DNA of 64,000 nucleotides from Gilliamella sp. Pas-s25 (GTDB lineage Bacteria > Pseudomonadota > Gammaproteobacteria > Enterobacterales > Orbaceae). A model generated the notes under the pieces. It was not told where the DNA came from. It did no database searches and saw only the letters and a program-made list of their open reading frames with translations. The translations under genes were made by a program, and so were the position numbers. Of the stretch, positions 2,972 to 37,986 are shown piece by piece. Each line of letters starts with the position of its first letter. Position 1 is the first letter of the stretch. The stretch spans positions 1 to 64,000 of the forward strand of contig NZ_WTEV01000004.1 in assembly GCF_009795885.1 (NCBI RefSeq), in the 5' to 3' direction.

Positions 2972-3400
2972 CTACCGAATCACAAGCACCGCCGTTTTAG
3001 CTCCACGCACCACTCCTGACGCATTCGATCCTAAAAGATGCGTTGAGATATTGGGACGACGCGAGCCTAAAATTATTAAGTCTGGTTTGATTTCGTCAGC
3101 TAATGCAAGGATTTCATCTCTTGGATGACCAAATGCGATAGAAAACGATACATGCTCATGCGGTAAATTAATCGAATCCATTAATTGATGAAGGTATTGT
3201 TCCGTTTGTACTGTTGCATGATCTTTAAATTCATCAAATCCAAAAGAGTAAGCATTGATAATAGCCGATGAAACAGGCAAGGCATGAAAAAAGATGACTT
3301 GCGCATTAGACAATCTGGCTAAGCACTCTACATGTGGAATGACTTTTTTAGTTAATTCATCTTCAAGCACATCGATAGGAACTAAAATTTTTTTGTACAT
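2972..3400 (-). CDS. uspF: Universal stress protein, UspF type
   Basis: A single Usp domain of 142 residues. It begins MYKKILVPIDV, the ATP-binding strand of the family, and ends with LIILGSRRPN and LLGSNASGVV, which form the phosphate-binding G-x2-G-x9-G(S/T)-like loop of UspF/UspG proteins. The overall pattern (ELTKKVIPHVE near the start, GHPRDEILALA mid-protein) follows E. coli UspF closely. These proteins are stress-induced nucleotide-binding proteins linked to adhesion and motility in enterobacteria; no enzymatic role is implied. It is a lone gene with a GGAGGG ribosome-binding site just upstream and a hairpin downstream. Confidence 0.85.
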   Translation of the reverse strand: MYKKILVPIDVLEDELTKKVIPHVECLARLSNAQVIFFHALPVSSAIINAYSFGFDEFKDHATVQTEQYLHQLMDSINLPHEHVSFSIAFGHPRDEILALADEIKPDLIILGSRRPNISTHLLGSNASGVVRGAKTAVLVIR

Positions 3401-7064: not shown

Positions 7065-7724
7065 TTAATTATTAATGATACGCGCGACTTTGCCGTGCTC
7101 CAGTACTACTGTGGTTTGAGCATGTTTTGATACTTCTGGTGAGTGAGTAACCACAATGATTGTACTGCCTTCTTCGTGCAGTTGATGTAGTAAGTTCATA
7201 ACCATCGCTTCATTGCTTTCATCTAAATTACCAGTTGGTTCATCGGCTAATATTAACTTAGGATAATTAATTAATGCCCTAGCAATACAAACTCGTTGCT
7301 GTTCTCCCCCCGATAACTGTCGCGGTAAGTGCTTAGCACGGGCGGCAAGCCCTACCCGCTCAAGTGCTTGCATGGCTTCTTTTTCGTCAACCATACTATG
7401 ATAATACTGGGCGACCATAACATTTTCTAGTGCAGTTAAATACGGTACTAGATGGAATTGTTGAAAAATCAAGCCTATCTTATCTCGGCGAATTTCTGTC
7501 AATTGGGACAAAGAAAGCTGAGTAATATCTTGTCCATCGAGAATAACCGAACCAAGTGAAGGTTTATCCATACAACCAATGATATTCATCAAAGTCGTTT
7601 TACCGCTACCAGATGGTCCCATGATCGATAACCAATTCCCTTCCTCAACCGTTAGATTCACCTCAGACAATGCATGCAGTGAACCATAAATCTTAGACAC
7701 ATTTTTTACTTCGAGTATATTCAT
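7065..7724 (-). CDS. ABC transporter ATPase of the P19/FTR1 iron cluster
   Basis: ATPase of 219 residues: Walker A GPSGSGKTT (near 36), signature LSGGEQQRV, Walker B LILADEPTGNLD, H-loop VVTHSPEV. It matches the position of Cj1663 in the Campylobacter iron cluster (ATPase after two FtsX permeases). It starts ten bases after the stop of the second permease, consistent with one complex of ATPase plus two different FtsX subunits. Likely role, by family and location: powering a step that works with P19 and the DUF2318 protein in iron uptake at low pH or low iron. Confidence 0.87.
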   Translation of the reverse strand: MNILEVKNVSKIYGSLHALSEVNLTVEEGNWLSIMGPSGSGKTTLMNIIGCMDKPSLGSVILDGQDITQLSLSQLTEIRRDKIGLIFQQFHLVPYLTALENVMVAQYYHSMVDEKEAMQALERVGLAARAKHLPRQLSGGEQQRVCIARALINYPKLILADEPTGNLDESNEAMVMNLLHQLHEEGSTIIVVTHSPEVSKHAQTTVVLEHGKVARIINN

Positions 7725-33336: not shown

Positions 33337-33613
33337 ATCTATTCAAATTAAAATCGGGTTATTATGTTTGGCTAAAAAGATCCAACAAATCCATCAAACT
33401 TAGCGAATATATCAAAAAACAGTATTGATACCATAAGGCACGTTATTGATAGGGTTAGTTTTGGTTGATGGGGTAGGTGCTTTTTAAAGGCATAAAATCG
33501 CTCCGATAGACTATTGATTTTATTTATGTTTTACTTCTATTTTTTCAATAGTGCTATTTACCACCAAAACCTAAAGCATTCAAAATGTTGTTCTTGATGT
33601 AAGTTAAAAATAC

Positions 33614-34042
33614 TTATTTAACTTGACCCAAATCCTCATCATCCACCTGCGCCATAAACCAACGTTGCCAGCCAGTAGTCTGTTTTTGGATGTTGTCGAT
33701 GGATTGGTTGAATGAAGCAAAAGCACCGTGCGAAATCATTTTCATCTTCCAACCCACACACAACAACCCTTTAATCACATCTAACGAAGCACGAATAAGT
33801 TGTAACTGTTTAACGGCTGATTGACATTCTTCGATGTTATCTCGGTCAACGATATTAGACAATACCGCAAAGCGTATTGCCCCTGTAAGCTCGGTTAAAA
33901 TCGCTTCGCCGGTGGTAAATTTAAACGATTTAGGTAAATGACAATGCGTTTGCCAATAGCATTGGTATAATGTCACTAAATCATTAAATATTTTAGGTTG
34001 AACAAAAGTTGATTTAACAGTGTTGAGCAATTCATCATGCAT
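33614..34042 (-). CDS. Avd-like four-helix accessory protein of a diversity-generating retroelement
   Basis: About 142 residues, almost all helical, in four segments (about 10-35, 45-65, 72-100, 105-130). The pattern FNDLVTLYQCYWQTHCHLPK, FTTGEAILTELTGAIRFAVL, LQLIRASLDVIKGLL, GWKMKMISHGAF and the ending WQRWFMAQ matches the S23/Avd four-helix family, whose members bind the DGR reverse transcriptase and RNA. The start at 34042 is set by GAGG six bases upstream; an ATG six codons earlier lacks a site. Its start codon shares the palindrome ATGCAT with the divergent reverse-transcriptase fragment. Confidence 0.75.
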   Translation of the reverse strand: MHDELLNTVKSTFVQPKIFNDLVTLYQCYWQTHCHLPKSFKFTTGEAILTELTGAIRFAVLSNIVDRDNIEECQSAVKQLQLIRASLDVIKGLLCVGWKMKMISHGAFASFNQSIDNIQKQTTGWQRWFMAQVDDEDLGQVK

Positions 34043-34372
34043 AATAACCTCACAAAACAATTATTAAATGCAGCCACACAAACCGCACAAAGTTTACAAA
34101 AATCGTTATCACTATTGAACATTGCTGAACTCTGTAACGAGTTAGCAAGCGATGTACTAAACCCAAAGTACCAACCAAGCACCTATACACGTTTTGCCGT
34201 TTGCGACCCAAAGCTACGCGAAATCTATGCACCAGCTTATCGTGACCGATTATTGCAATGTTGGTTAGTAAACCAAGCTGAGCCTATAATTAGCCCTCAC
34301 TTTATTGAAGACTCTTTGGATCGGCGGCGGGGGTTGCGCTATTGTGGCTTTGCCACAATAGCGCAACCCTAA
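34037..34372 (+). pseudogene. N-terminal fragment of a DGR-type reverse transcriptase
   Basis: The frame encodes 111 residues. Residues 35-95 (YQPSTYTRFAVCDPKLREIY, then APAYRDRLLQCWLVNQAEPI and FIEDSLDRRRG) match the start of DGR reverse transcriptases: the RT motif 1 region, where PKxREIY and FRDRLVQH are typical. Everything after, including the palm with the YxDD catalytic motif and the SQ motif, is missing. The frame runs straight into an 18-bp perfect palindrome (34331-34369) and stops. It starts head-to-head with the Avd-like gene. Probably non-functional. Confidence 0.75.
34331..34369. repeat. 18-bp perfect palindrome at the reverse-transcriptase breakpoint
   Basis: 34331-34348 is the exact reverse complement of 34352-34369, with a three-base loop. 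Stem GGGTTGCGCTATTGTGGC is richer in G/C than the surroundings. It begins where homology to reverse transcriptase ends. It could be a fold-back deletion scar, a REP-like element or a terminator without a U-run. Confidence 0.85.
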
Positions 34373-34379
34373 GGAAAAC

Positions 34380-34408
34380 GCCCCAACTTACGCGGGGGCT
34401 TTATTCTT
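34380..34408 (+). terminator. GC-rich terminator between the RT fragment and target 1
   Basis: GCCCC (34380-34384) pairs with GGGGC (34395-34399), followed by TTTATTCTTTGTT. The minus-strand side reads GGGGCGTTTT, so it may also stop transcription of target gene 1. Confidence 0.6.
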
Positions 34409-34477
34409 TGTTATATTATCCTCTCAAGCACCATAACCACCCCCGCGACCTAAGGATTAAGAAATAAACGCTAAAAG

Positions 34478-35383
34478 CTAAGGTGCGGTGCAAAGGAAAT
34501 AGCGGGAGTCGCTGACACTGAAGCTGTCGACGCTGCCGGCGCCGCCGCTCGAGTGGACAATGAACTGGTTGCTACCTGTCGCGTCGCTCGTCCAGTAGCC
34601 GTAGAAGACGCCGAAGCCCGCATCAGTGTAGTAGGGCATGTCGCCCCACTCCGTGAATAATCCAGAACCAATTCGTCTCTGGTAATGATTACCACTTGAT
34701 GATGGTGTAGCACCAAAACGTCCTGCTCTAGCATTAGTCAGATCCCTGACCTGTGGCATTCGATAACCCAAACTATTACACCATGCTTCTGTATTAGGAT
34801 AGTTATCTATTTTATTTCCGCGGTTGACGAACCACTGCTTTAACACAAATCCATATTTTACTACCTCACCGCCATATATATCTCTACCCACTAACTCAAA
34901 CGTCTGCGGTAACCTTGGCTTAGCAATTAAACTCGGATGAGGATTGTTTATTTGAGCTCTTGCCTCTGGACCTGTTAGCGTCACACGAAACTCAACATCA
35001 CATTCGCGATTACATTCTGTTTTCCTCGTTACTGTTGCAGTGATTCCTTCATGCGTGACTGGTGTCCATGTCAATCCACTTGCTTCCCCCATTATGATTA
35101 AATCAAAATATAATCCATCAGCTCCCGTAGTTGGAAAATTAAGTGCGTATGATGCCGGATCAGTTGATTGAACTAGGAATCCATCTTTGGGGTTCCATAT
35201 GTCAGCGGGGCCCGCGAAGGAATTCCTGCCGAAATCAAGAATAGGTTTTACGGATTTGAGGATCCCCCATTGTAACGATGGCAGTATTATGGCATCACTG
35301 CGATCACCTCCTTGACTATTTTGACCCGATAATGCTTGTGAATTCAACGAAGACAACAATAATGATAGGAGTATCAACGCCAA
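34478..35383 (-). CDS. DGR target-like secreted protein 1 with hypervariable C-terminus
   Basis: Secreted protein of about 300 residues. A hydrophobic leader (LILLSLLLSSLNSQA) is followed by a beta-rich domain and a C-terminal module with WCNSLGYRMPQVRDLTNA, TEWG, and GYWTSDATG, like the C-type-lectin/formylglycine-enzyme fold used by DGR variable proteins. The last 55 codons are GC-rich and about 38 end in C. The frame continues upstream with homology to target 2 (RVFTLTSFISSKLS), yet no ATG, GTG or TTG exists there, the position of target 2's ATG being TTA. The first usable start is TTG at 35383, so the leader is shortened or the gene is silent. Confidence 0.7.
   Translation of the reverse strand: MALILLSLLLSSLNSQALSGQNSQGGDRSDAIILPSLQWGILKSVKPILDFGRNSFAGPADIWNPKDGFLVQSTDPASYALNFPTTGADGLYFDLIIMGEASGLTWTPVTHEGITATVTRKTECNRECDVEFRVTLTGPEARAQINNPHPSLIAKPRLPQTFELVGRDIYGGEVVKYGFVLKQWFVNRGNKIDNYPNTEAWCNSLGYRMPQVRDLTNARAGRFGATPSSSGNHYQRRIGSGLFTEWGDMPYYTDAGFGVFYGYWTSDATGSNQFIVHSSGGAGSVDSFSVSDSRYFLCTAP
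34481..34648 (-). other. Candidate variable region (VR) of target 1
   Basis: In coding sense this is the last 55 codons after GAGTGG. About 38 are NNC (GGC, AGC, GTC, TTC, TAC, GAC and so on) and only one is AAC, in a genome that prefers NNT/NNA. DGRs replace adenines of AAC template codons by random bases, leaving exactly this pattern. The flanking part of the same gene is ordinary AT-rich sequence. Confidence 0.65.
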
Positions 35384-35565
35384 CGAAATTTTTTGGGATA
35401 ATGTTGATAGTAATTTGAGAGATAACTTCGAAGATATAAACGAGGTTAAAGTAAAAACTCGTCTAACGTGGTTATTTGATAAATTTAAGACATAGGTTTG
35501 CCAGTGCTTGTGCCTTGTGCCTTGTGCCTAAAATGATAATGCATTATGGTTCACCTGTCAAGTAA

Positions 35566-35764
35566 ATTGTTGTTTTATTTATCCTTTTTATGTTCTTTCG
35601 CTTATTAAATAATCCTTTTTTTAAGTTGATGAAAGTATAACCATAAAAAAAAAACTTGGCTAGTTTTTTGGCTGACTTTTTTTATAAAGAAATGTAAAAA
35701 GAAAAACGGTCCAGTTTTATTGATAGTTAAATTTTTAATTAAAATATGGTGTTATGTTTCTAAA
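35566..35764 (-). repeat. Duplicated upstream region of target 1
   Basis: Aligns with 37378-37560 upstream of target 2. Conserved blocks (plus strand) include TTGGCTAGTTTTTT, AATGTAAA, and TTTTTAATTAAAATATG. The repeat probably carries the promoter or leader shared by both target genes. Confidence 0.65.
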
Positions 35765-35790
35765 TATCCTTCTACAATAAGTAGTGAGAT

Positions 35791-36051
35791 AAAAAGAAAT
35801 TCAAACGTAAACAAGCCTATCAAGCGCATGAGGCGGTGACACTTGCTCGGAAAAGGCGAAAAAACAGCGGTAATGATAAGCCCATAGAGGATCGGTATGA
35901 CATCAAATTGAAAAATACCTGATACATTATTACAGCCAGAGCAGATTGCCGCATGTTTAAACAAACGTCAGCGACTATTTCATTCGTTGACGACGAACAA
36001 ATAAAGAAAATACAATATTTATTGAACTCACGCCCAAGAAAACGGCCTTAG
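35791..36051 (+). pseudogene. IS30-family-like transposase relic
   Basis: Two broken pieces in different frames. 35791-35923 reads KRKQAYQAHEAVTLARKRRK then KNSGNDKPIEDRYDIKLKN, like the start region of IS30-type transposases; 35953-36051 reads SATISFVDDEQIKKIQYLLN then SRPRKRP, like the NNRPRKxL end of the IS30 DDE domain. Stops and a large deletion separate them. The second piece ends inside a 14-bp palindrome. Family assignment is tentative. Confidence 0.45.
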
Positions 36052-36081
36052 AATAAAAGCCCTGCTCCTTTTATTCTAAGG
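36046..36081. repeat. 14-bp perfect palindrome at the end of the transposase relic
   Basis: CCTTAGAATAAAAG (36046-36059) is the reverse complement of 36068-36081, loop of eight bases. It coincides with the break of the transposase-like frame, much as the palindrome at 34331-34369 does for the reverse transcriptase. Confidence 0.8.
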
Positions 36082-36266
36082 AGTTAAGACGAATTGCACT
36101 TCATGGTGTAATCTAGTTTTTTTGTTATTTTATTATTTCATTGAAAGCGCTTAACGCTTGCTTCATTGCTTAGATTCACTTACGCTGAGCGTTATTCTTT
36201 AACTGCTTTACTTTTGATTAATCCCAAGCTCAATATCTATCTTATATAAAAATTAAGAAATTAGTA

Positions 36267-37340
36267 TTAAGGATAAACGCAAATGCCATAATTAGAGCTA
36301 GAAACCCAATTTGAGTTTAGGTTTTTAACACGGCCATTGTCCGATTCTACGAAGAAATCGCTATCGCTCGTCCAATATTCACTACGGCGGGCAAAGTCTG
36401 CACTTCTATACATAGTCAAGGTGCCCCATTCCGTTACGAATCCTGCTCCTATATTGCGTTGTAGGCTATTTTTGCGTGACTGTGGTGAAGCGCCGTCTAT
36501 TCCGTTTCTACAAGGAAAATCGTCGTATCGAGGGTTACCTACGCCACACTTCGCATTGGTCAGATCTTTTACTCTTGGCGTATGATAACCTATCGCATTA
36601 CACCATGCGGCTTGCTCAGATTGGTTACCCGTTTTATCACCACGATGGACAAACCACTGCTTCAACACAAAACCATACTTTACCACCTCAGCACCATGTC
36701 TATTTCTACCCACTAATTCAAATGGTTGCGGCAAATGTGGCCTATGAACTAAATTTGGGTTATTGGAGTTTTTTTGAGTATAATTCGCTGATGGACCTGT
36801 TAAAATAACGCGTATAAATGTACTTTTTTCTAAAATAGTTCTTGTACTACAGGAAGGAATAAAACTTTCCAGAGTACTGCAAGCCTCATAAAACCAAGAA
36901 TCACTCCTTGGTATACTTGTCACTGTGGCAGTAATTCCTTCGTGTGCATCTGACTGCCATGTTAAATCATTTGCATTTTCCTCTAAGACTAAATCAAAAA
37001 ATACCCCATCAGCACCTGTGGTAGGGAAATTAAAAGCGTATAAAGGATGTGGTTGAGCGAAAAATCCTGTATTGTAAACAAATTCAGGAGCCGTGGGTTC
37101 AGGTTTAAGATCGTTCACACCTTCATTATAAATATAGTAAGGGGAAAGAGTAGGGGTAGCAAATAAGACAATTGGATCAGCAGGTATCATTATTATATCA
37201 CTACGATTACCCGCTTGAGCTTGTACATTCCATGAAGAAGATAATAATAACAGCCCCAACACCAATAAGCTTTTTCGGGATAATTTCGACGATATAAATA
37301 AGTTTCGTGTAAAAACTCGTCGAATAAGATTATTCTGCAT
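36267..37340 (-). CDS. DGR target-like secreted protein 2
   Basis: Paralogue of target 1, 357 residues. Signal peptide (SLLVLGLLLLSSSWNVQAQA) with a long n-region containing IRRVFTRNLFISSKLSRK; then FPTTGADGVFFDLVLEE, HEGITATVT, LPQPFELVGRNRHGAEVV, KYGFVLKQWFVHRG and WCNAIGYHTPRVKDLTNA, all shared with target 1. The C-terminal module has TEWG and EYWTSDSD, then a divergent tail. Here only about 16 of 52 tail codons are NNC, so recent diversification is less evident. Start 37340 is chosen because GAGGG lies just upstream. Likely surface-exposed or secreted; ligand unknown. Confidence 0.7.
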   Translation of the reverse strand: MQNNLIRRVFTRNLFISSKLSRKSLLVLGLLLLSSSWNVQAQAGNRSDIIMIPADPIVLFATPTLSPYYIYNEGVNDLKPEPTAPEFVYNTGFFAQPHPLYAFNFPTTGADGVFFDLVLEENANDLTWQSDAHEGITATVTSIPRSDSWFYEACSTLESFIPSCSTRTILEKSTFIRVILTGPSANYTQKNSNNPNLVHRPHLPQPFELVGRNRHGAEVVKYGFVLKQWFVHRGDKTGNQSEQAAWCNAIGYHTPRVKDLTNAKCGVGNPRYDDFPCRNGIDGASPQSRKNSLQRNIGAGFVTEWGTLTMYRSADFARRSEYWTSDSDFFVESDNGRVKNLNSNWVSSSNYGICVYP

Positions 37341-37377
37341 TATGTCCCTCACATCAAGTAATATTTTATTCTGTTTG

Positions 37378-37560
37378 AATTTTTACAGATTCTTGCTTAT
37401 TTAATAAGCTTACTTTTCTAACGCTATGAAAGTATAGTCGTAAAAAAAATAGTTGGCTAGTTTTTTAGCGGACTTTTGATAAATAAATGTAAAGATGAAA
37501 ATAATTTGACTTTAGATATAGGTAATTTTTTAATTAAAATATGATGTTATATTTCTGACA
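37378..37560 (-). repeat. Duplicated upstream region of target 2
   Basis: Counterpart of 35566-35764. It also carries a small GCTTATTTAATAAGC dyad (37397-37411) not complete in the other copy. Confidence 0.6.
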
Positions 37561-37986
37561 TTTTGGTCTTTGCTGGGATTATTAATATCTATGACCACGC
37601 TCTCATCAAACCTCCCCTTCTGGCGTACTAACTTTACTTAATTATCGATGCATTTTAACGCCGTGATAAGCTAGATATATTGATTTTACAATATCGTGAG
37701 ATTTTTTTAAACCATTCAGGTAGACTATTTATTTTATTTGTTTTTTATTTTGTTTTTTTAATGAAATTAATTCGCTATAAAGCATCTTCGGGGATTTTAT
37801 GTTTTGTTTAAAGTCATTTGGATGGGTTTAAGTATTACACACCAGCTTTAATTTGTTCATGATAAAAAATTCTTACTTGAGATGCAGATTTCCTCAGTTG
37901 TCAGCATATTCTGATATCGGAATGTACCAACAACTAGGTAATGTTTTGCTTAATAGACTTTATTTAGCGTAGAATTAAAGTTTGAC
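37561..37986. other. AT-rich gap between target 2 and mnmE
   Basis: About 425 bases with no credible gene. Short stretches of frame exist on both strands but none has a ribosome-binding site or recognisable product. No mnmE terminator with a U-run was identified. Confidence 0.4.

Follow-up and report, generated by a model that had tools for sequence, protein, structure and literature searches.

A probable dead core of an inverted diversity-generating retroelement in Gilliamella sp. Pas-s25 and its dispersed target genes

Genes at the window locus

The stretch analysed here comprises the 64,000 nucleotides at positions 1 to 64,000 of contig NZ_WTEV01000004.1 of Gilliamella sp. Pas-s25 (the window; G000:C63:1-64000 in our genome set). 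Between mnmE and a gene which we take to be of the PerM/AI-2E type, it carries an insert with an avd gene and a truncated reverse transcriptase (RT) gene of a diversity-generating retroelement (DGR), together with two paralogous genes of a target family. This locus is very probably what remains of the core of an 'inverted' DGR, now disabled, and one of its targets is clearly diversified. The genome of Pas-s25 (G000; 2.81 Mb, 109 contigs) was compared within a set of 35 genus genomes, itself included, with one genome per species and five genomes less than 90% complete. The following features were determined:

33337-37986, no strand assigned: entire insert between the PerM/AI-2E-type gene and mnmE, from gap comparison among genomes
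33614-34042, minus strand: avd (DGR accessory protein), 142 aa, frame apparently intact, phrog_3206 match
34037-34316, plus strand: N-terminal remnant of a DGR reverse transcriptase, ~93 codons, from the phrog_1423 match, the identity to intact RT and the end of homology
34317-34480, minus strand: 3' flank of target 1 joined to the RT, from homology to the 3' flanks of other targets
34481-35383, minus strand: target protein 1, from family membership and the signature of its variable repeat; the open frame extends to 35527
34486-34644, minus strand: variable repeat (VR) of target 1, from alignment to the template repeat (TR) of Gilliamella bombicola
36270-37352, minus strand: target-family paralogue 2, from paralogy to target 1; no DGR signature against the G. 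bombicola TR

The Avd of the window matched phrog_3206, 'Avd protein of DGR', with an E-value of 1.5e-8, while the matches to NCBIfam DivGenRetAVD (6.1e-5, under the curated cut-off) and Pfam bAvd (0.0063, under the cut-off) were weaker. It showed 91% identity to the Avd beside the intact DGR of G. bombicola R-53248 (G018) and 35% to the Avd of the inverted DGRs of Vibrio and Shewanella. The genes avd and RT start head to head, the ATGCAT at 34037-34042 being common to both start codons. The open frame of the RT remnant covers 34037-34372 (111 aa); its product matched phrog_1423, 'Reverse transcriptase' (9.1e-15), and is 95% identical over 97 aa to the intact Gilliamella RT. Since the DNA likeness to the RT genes of relatives (L020, L021) ends at 34316, RT sequence makes up only ~93 codons at the start of the frame, and what follows is foreign. 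The YMDD of the intact RT lies at aa 235-238, past the break, which leaves the remnant without the catalytic motif. The sequence-only reading had taken the products of 33614-34042 and 34037-34330 for DGR proteins, and both profile matches agree with this.

A profile search of the Pas-s25 assembly at E <= 1e-12 gave no further RT of this type. Three other RT frames of 464-605 aa were observed on contigs C25, C32 and C69 (L001-L003), of which the one with 575 aa is presumably a group II intron protein. Altogether, the window locus holds the Avd of a DGR and neither a complete DGR-type RT nor a TR. Since only ~93 RT codons are left and no other such RT was detected in the assembly, the locus is a remnant and not a DGR.

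Target 1 comprises a secreted-type N-terminus (judged by eye), a constant domain and a C-terminal VR formed by the last ~50 codons. The stretch 34481-34648, previously pointed out as variable, thus coincides closely with the VR at 34486-34644 (34491-34644 in another alignment). Compared to positions 1-150 of the G. bombicola TR, this VR showed mismatches at 20/45 adenines and at 14/105 other positions; the protein-guided test gave 16/35 and 7/70 (p = 6.3e-5). A 3'-end VR differing mainly at adenines was therefore found in target 1 and not in target 2. The claim of two diversified paralogous targets holds only in part: the paralogy and the signature of target 1 stand, while target 2 is without signature and the family is spread over the whole genome. 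As a side observation, window positions 35389-36290 are duplicated, at 93%, in contig C95 of the same genome (L112), where a near-copy of target 2 is found as well. A further target-family gene of this genome (L024:18569-19324; G000:C63:82620-83432) contains in-frame stops, therefore some targets are decaying.

The flank fused to the RT resembles the target 3' flanks of G. bombicola, G022 and G017 from ~34319-34323 onwards, and those of other Pas-s25 targets from ~34379. A terminator-like hairpin was seen by eye in 34317-34480, and positions 34331-34369 form a perfect inverted repeat of 17 bp around a 5-nt loop; the other targets examined have imperfect forms. This repeat was considered as a general homing hairpin and rejected, as the other flanks examined are without the perfect form and its distance of ~110-150 nt past the stop is outside the 4-34 bp of the phage DGRs of Guo et al. 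Conserved 3' flanks were likewise dismissed as a mark of live VRs. Although flank and VR correlated in 38 G. bombicola targets (rho 0.72), this was not specific: general divergence may explain the correlation, because constant domain and VR (0.72) and constant domain and flank (0.64) correlated too.

Intact and broken relatives

The 35 genus genomes were surveyed for RTs of this type with a single sequence and with a profile built with the plasmid relatives at E <= 1e-12. Three genomes contain one (Pas-s25, G. bombicola and Gilliamella sp. Choc5-1, G012), and it is intact in G. bombicola only. There, at a genomic position differing from that of the window, the core consists of Avd, a 408-aa RT with YMDD and, by alignment, IGSASSQ, which we read as a GxxxSQ-type motif, and a TR of ~150 nt directly behind the RT. 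The TR is rich in AAC codons and lies on the strand opposite to the RT; the bias is on that strand (A 46%, T 11%). Next comes an accessory frame that reaches the contig end and has at least 174 aa. Since the contig stops inside this accessory gene, no target in cis is visible in G. bombicola. Compared to this core, the window locus lost the remainder of the RT, the TR and the small accessory gene. A query of TR plus leader detected no TR leader in Pas-s25; three matches there cover the TR start only, as VRs do.

The gap between the PerM-type gene and mnmE comprises ~4.65 kb in the window and ~0.14-0.36 kb in 5 of 10 other genomes having the PerM-type gene, where mnmE follows directly (L133, L134, L137, L139, L140). 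At the same site, Choc5-1 carries Avd and RT, and G007 and G017 carry a target but neither of these two genes; for G003 and G006, the 1.5 kb examined next to the PerM-type gene contained no match to any gene searched for. Choc5-1 matches the window insertion site with 98.7% over 311 bp between PerM and Avd. Its RT is longer than that of the window but also broken; it stops at aa 275, ahead of a frame that looks transposase-like by eye. The sequence-only reading of a captured DGR that had lost most of its RT and the TR is supported by Choc5-1 at the same site and by the core in G. bombicola, which has the full RT and TR that are missing from Pas-s25. The opposite outcome, unrelated protein families and no strain with a DGR at this locus, was not observed.

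Among the plasmid and phage records searched, the closest RTs are plasmid-borne, namely those of Yersinia hibernica (54.7%), Vibrio (~45%) and Shewanella baltica OS117 (44%), while phage RT records reached up to 32.4% among the matches listed (12 of 105). A phage origin was tried and not retained: no relative was found in viral_contigs by a single-protein scan, which detects close relatives only. The plasmid relatives have the gene order Avd, RT, TR, accessory gene, target, except that no Avd was found in Yersinia. Their TR-VR mismatches at adenines compared to other positions amount to 19/40 vs 1/92 in Yersinia, 18/40 vs 2/96 in Vibrio and 21/59 vs 8/112 in Shewanella. The G. bombicola system has the full-length RT with YMDD and a GxxxSQ-type motif expected of Group 4, the inverted DGRs; its probable kinship with them is judged from the identities of 54.7%, 45% and 44%. 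The accessory-type protein adjoining the TR in inverted DGRs has ~155-175 aa (L022:11839-12363, L141:7578-8045, L142:7567-8058, L143:7567-8025) and showed no significant family or PDB match; its assignment as a MutS-like factor was discarded.

In all four systems (G. bombicola, Vibrio, Shewanella, Yersinia) the TR unit is flanked by inverted repeats of 16-19 nt, 319-343 nt apart (arms at L020:2724-2740 and 3084-3100; L142 and L143:7213-7228 and 7548-7563; L141:7208-7226 and 7555-7573). The arms fall into three unrelated sequences, one in Gilliamella, one common to Vibrio and Shewanella and one in Yersinia, while their position is alike. The observed repeat score was reached by 0 of 100 shuffles for G. 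bombicola, 1 for Vibrio and 0 for Shewanella. RNA folding of the TR unit gave a z of -3.0 for G. bombicola (0/100 shuffles as good) and -2.9 for Vibrio (2/100), with the stem closing the structure. Based on these models, the bracketing repeat is possibly the closing stem of the template RNA; it is also possible that the arms are terminal repeats of an invertible TR segment.

Adenine bias and dispersed targets

At E <= 1e-10, members of the target family were detected in 30 of the 35 genomes. A single genome yields as many as 48 matches, counted as pieces and not as genes. Pas-s25 itself shows 48, of which 37 lie at E <= 1e-10; its target set omits more distant family matches on contigs C34, C37, C56 and part of C95. 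TR and VRs were compared by plain alignments, in which adenines were not favoured and only scores of at least 60 were counted. For G. bombicola (n=22, first 113 nt), mismatches were determined at 355/771 A, 109/611 C, 62/539 G and 43/399 T (p 5e-62). For Pas-s25 (n=9), 143/314 A and 120/632 other positions differed from the G. bombicola TR (p 5e-17), where some of the non-A mismatches are lineage differences, the TR being that of another species. A protein-guided adenine test was applied to open frames with a 3' end (40/42 in G. bombicola, 30/30 in Pas-s25, some of them broken pieces), and single genes reached p < 0.01 in 22/40 and 5/30 frames, respectively. In 19 of the 40 G. bombicola VRs, chosen for few non-A and many A mismatches, changes in AAY codons affected position 1 in 161/239, position 2 in 131/239 and position 3 in 40/239.

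The same bias was observed in genomes without the RT, with counts covering only loci retrieved by the TR query. Compared to the G. bombicola TR, A and other mismatches amounted to 103/221 vs 50/439 in G017 (6 loci), 35/71 vs 19/145 in G007 (2 loci), 29/69 vs 22/143 in G022 (2 loci) and 71/230 vs 101/470 in G010 (7 loci, p 0.009).

G010 retains a TR stub of 48 nt, whose leader is 85% identical to that of G. bombicola (G010:C13:300137-300377; L069:1308-1548). Pooled against this stub, 20 VRs of G010 differ at 152/340 adenines and at 22/639 other positions (p 1.6e-57). One stub adenine differs in 20/20 VRs; here the stub itself may have changed afterwards. The G010 stretches examined gave no match to Avd, RT or accessory gene, and the genome survey gave no RT either. 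By eye, the stub has an McrC-like frame and a tRNA-like sequence nearby, the latter perhaps representing tRNA-Ser. A G010 VR used as DNA query matched 32 places in this genome, not all of them inspected and at least one, the stub, outside any target.

Differences between targets were also expressed as a codon-position ratio (third-position differences divided by the mean of first and second positions). Constant domains showed ratios of 1.25 to 1.75, the VRs of G010 one of 0.40. Over all pairs of the 20 G010 targets retrieved, VRs compared to their own constant domains differed by 0.325 vs 0.147 at first, 0.278 vs 0.137 at second and 0.121 vs 0.177 at third positions. A tree built from 90 constant domains unites all of its 19 G010 targets in one group (100/98) and 26 of its 39 G. 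bombicola targets in another with modest support (86/88). This grouping suggests that the targets multiplied independently from lineage to lineage.

Interpretation and comparison with known systems

In its working form, such a system has divergent Avd and RT genes and a TR transcribed toward the RT. An RT-Avd complex would copy the TR RNA, making errors at adenines, and this cDNA would replace target 3' ends in trans, wherever the targets lie; the targets would presumably bind ligands at the cell surface. In the lineage of the window, the RT was cut at ~codon 93, where it now runs into the 3' flank of a target. The TR and the small accessory gene would have disappeared in the same event or afterwards, which would leave the VRs as a frozen repertoire.

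Several observations weigh against this interpretation. Target 2 showed no adenine bias against the G. bombicola TR (14/33 A vs 27/63 non-A, p = 0.60), and 25 of the 30 Pas-s25 frames, target 2 included and a few being broken pieces, showed no signature at p < 0.01. The codon pattern of a DGR is absent from the VRs of G004 (1.06), G014 (1.12), all of G. bombicola (1.01) and all of Pas-s25 (1.08); as only G010 shows it, the ratio test is blind to mixed or older target sets. The Pas-s25 comparison rests on a foreign-species TR with lineage differences among the non-A mismatches, and a core on a missing or collapsed contig is possible in an assembly of 109 contigs. The inverted repeat of Yersinia alone is not beyond chance (9/100 shuffles reach its score). 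The C-type-lectin-like C-terminal module proposed from the letters alone could not be confirmed, with no Pfam or NCBIfam match above cut-off and no significant PDB sequence match, and such a fold of the targets would be conjectural. Finally, the adenine signatures are a record left in the sequence, from which retrohoming itself would have to be deduced.

The absence of a low codon ratio in the whole sets of G. bombicola, Pas-s25, G004 and G014 (1.01 to 1.12), together with the large family and its duplication bursts in the tree, could also be explained without any retroelement, the C-termini varying by ordinary positive selection and recombination between paralogues. This is hardly credible and already contradicted by the adenine bias, the codon ratios and the stub comparison: the VR ratio of 0.40 in G010 stands against 1.25 to 1.75 in constant domains, and the G010 changes fall on the adenines of the surviving stub. 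The targets of this strain might still be diversified in trans by a functional DGR at another place, such as a plasmid outside the assembly, as the nearest relatives are plasmid-borne and one TR can serve many dispersed VRs. We regard this as improbable, since neither a second RT (profile at E <= 1e-12) nor a TR leader was found in the assembly and non-A differences, measured against the foreign TR, are higher in the VRs of Pas-s25 (120/632) than in those of G. bombicola (214/1549). Even less probable is a new use of their own for which Avd and the RT stub would have been retained. Both frames are open and the Avd is still 91% identical to that of the intact system, but the stub is without the catalytic part and ends in foreign codons, and open frames are expected without selection if the loss was recent.

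As for the break itself, a copy of a target gene together with its 3' flank could have landed within the RT, instead of a deletion reaching to a resident target, and target copies would then be spreading pieces able to kill their own diversifier. In line with this, target blocks are mobile, as seen for the duplicated block with target 2 on contig C95, and in G007 and G017 a target stands beside the same PerM-type gene without Avd or RT. We nevertheless consider such an arrival unlikely. In Yersinia, Vibrio and Shewanella the target already lies beyond RT, TR and accessory gene in the same orientation, and therefore one internal deletion requires fewer steps. Furthermore, no cassette end was found at the break: the G. 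bombicola target flanks remain alike beyond the matching point, and the break was rejected as the end of a mobile target cassette.

Returning to the dead core of an inverted DGR, the window alone is a further example of a known DGR type. Taken with its relatives, it stands out by unusually many dispersed targets, by repeated loss of the core and by the inverted repeat bracketing the TR. DGRs have mostly been described with one or few targets, and the comparisons made here suggest that one such machine can rewrite at least 20 scattered genes and was lost or broken more than once. Tentatively, we propose a 'hit-and-run' diversifier, in which a plasmid-descended inverted DGR would enter Gilliamella, act in trans on at least 20 dispersed copies of one surface-protein family and then be lost by separate accidents (deletion or fusion in the strain of the window, insertion in Choc5-1 and, in G010, a deletion that spared only a TR stub). 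The lineages would keep a fixed library of binding variants without the cost of continued mutation, and the template RNA would be closed by a long stem in which the 5' leader pairs with the TR 3' end, as in Yersinia, Vibrio and Shewanella. If one core rewrites at least 20 genes, a bacterium could randomise much of its surface repertoire, which in a bee symbiont would bear on how strains recognise host, neighbours or phages. The core losses with long-lived targets raise the question, in culturable symbionts, of whether a DGR is kept or discarded after a useful repertoire has been obtained, and the stem around the TR offers a concrete RNA feature open to testing.

The 'inverted' DGRs were described as Group 4 from Shewanella baltica OS155, Vibrio sp. 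RC586 and Photobacterium angustum S14 in the cited passages of Schillinger et al. 2012 (PMC3521204). The Gilliamella system agrees with them in having the RT on one strand and the TR on the other, with Avd, RT, TR and the accessory gene of ~155-175 aa in matching order and orientation. Unlike Group 4, it is chromosomal, has tens of dispersed target-family genes, and its core is broken or lost in several lineages. In Vibrio the target is the end of an Ig-repeat protein, whereas the Gilliamella targets are separate secreted-type proteins. Plasmid pCFS1934 of Yersinia hibernica (NZ_CP032488.1) has the RT of highest identity (54.7%) in the phage and plasmid records that were searched, and its order is RT, TR, accessory gene, target. 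The C-terminus of this target is homologous to the Gilliamella targets (27% over ~120 aa, E 3e-6). However, pCFS1934 carries only one target in the 13 kb examined, beside genes annotated as SinI-type and inverse autotransporter, and shows no match to the Gilliamella Avd, an IS1 being located beside the RT where Avd is expected. The Y. hibernica target itself is a 387-aa frame not annotated as a gene (L141:8184-9347).

No paper combining 'Gilliamella' with 'diversity-generating' was found in the literature searched. Targets in trans, as in Gilliamella, are reported in the cited passages for cyanobacterial DGRs, with 76 remote targets over 21 genomes (PMC7517822), and for Thiohalocapsa PB-PSB1, with nine DGR loci for 15 targets (PMC10907252). 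According to the text cited from PMC6642488, single TRs with a dozen to hundreds of VR copies occur; in its example, the atypical case of Pseudomonas costantinii, six TRs account for 91 TR-VR pairs, with few A-to-N changes and 21 merged VRs in one gene. The clear adenine-type cases in the parts of the literature cited here comprise at most 4 VRs or 7 targets per TR, or 15 targets for nine loci (see also PMC8144416, PMC3240598). The closest parallel in behaviour is the DGR of Treponema denticola, for which the passages cited from PMC4891356 give two to seven targets per strain and leftover targets in strains without the core. Both systems combine a single TR with dispersed targets that remain after loss of RT and TR, and because T. 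denticola strains show it, core loss with surviving targets has a precedent. The Gilliamella system differs from that description in its numbers, with 22 of 40 frames significant singly in G. bombicola and 20 retrieved targets with a pooled signature in G010, and in its different target family.

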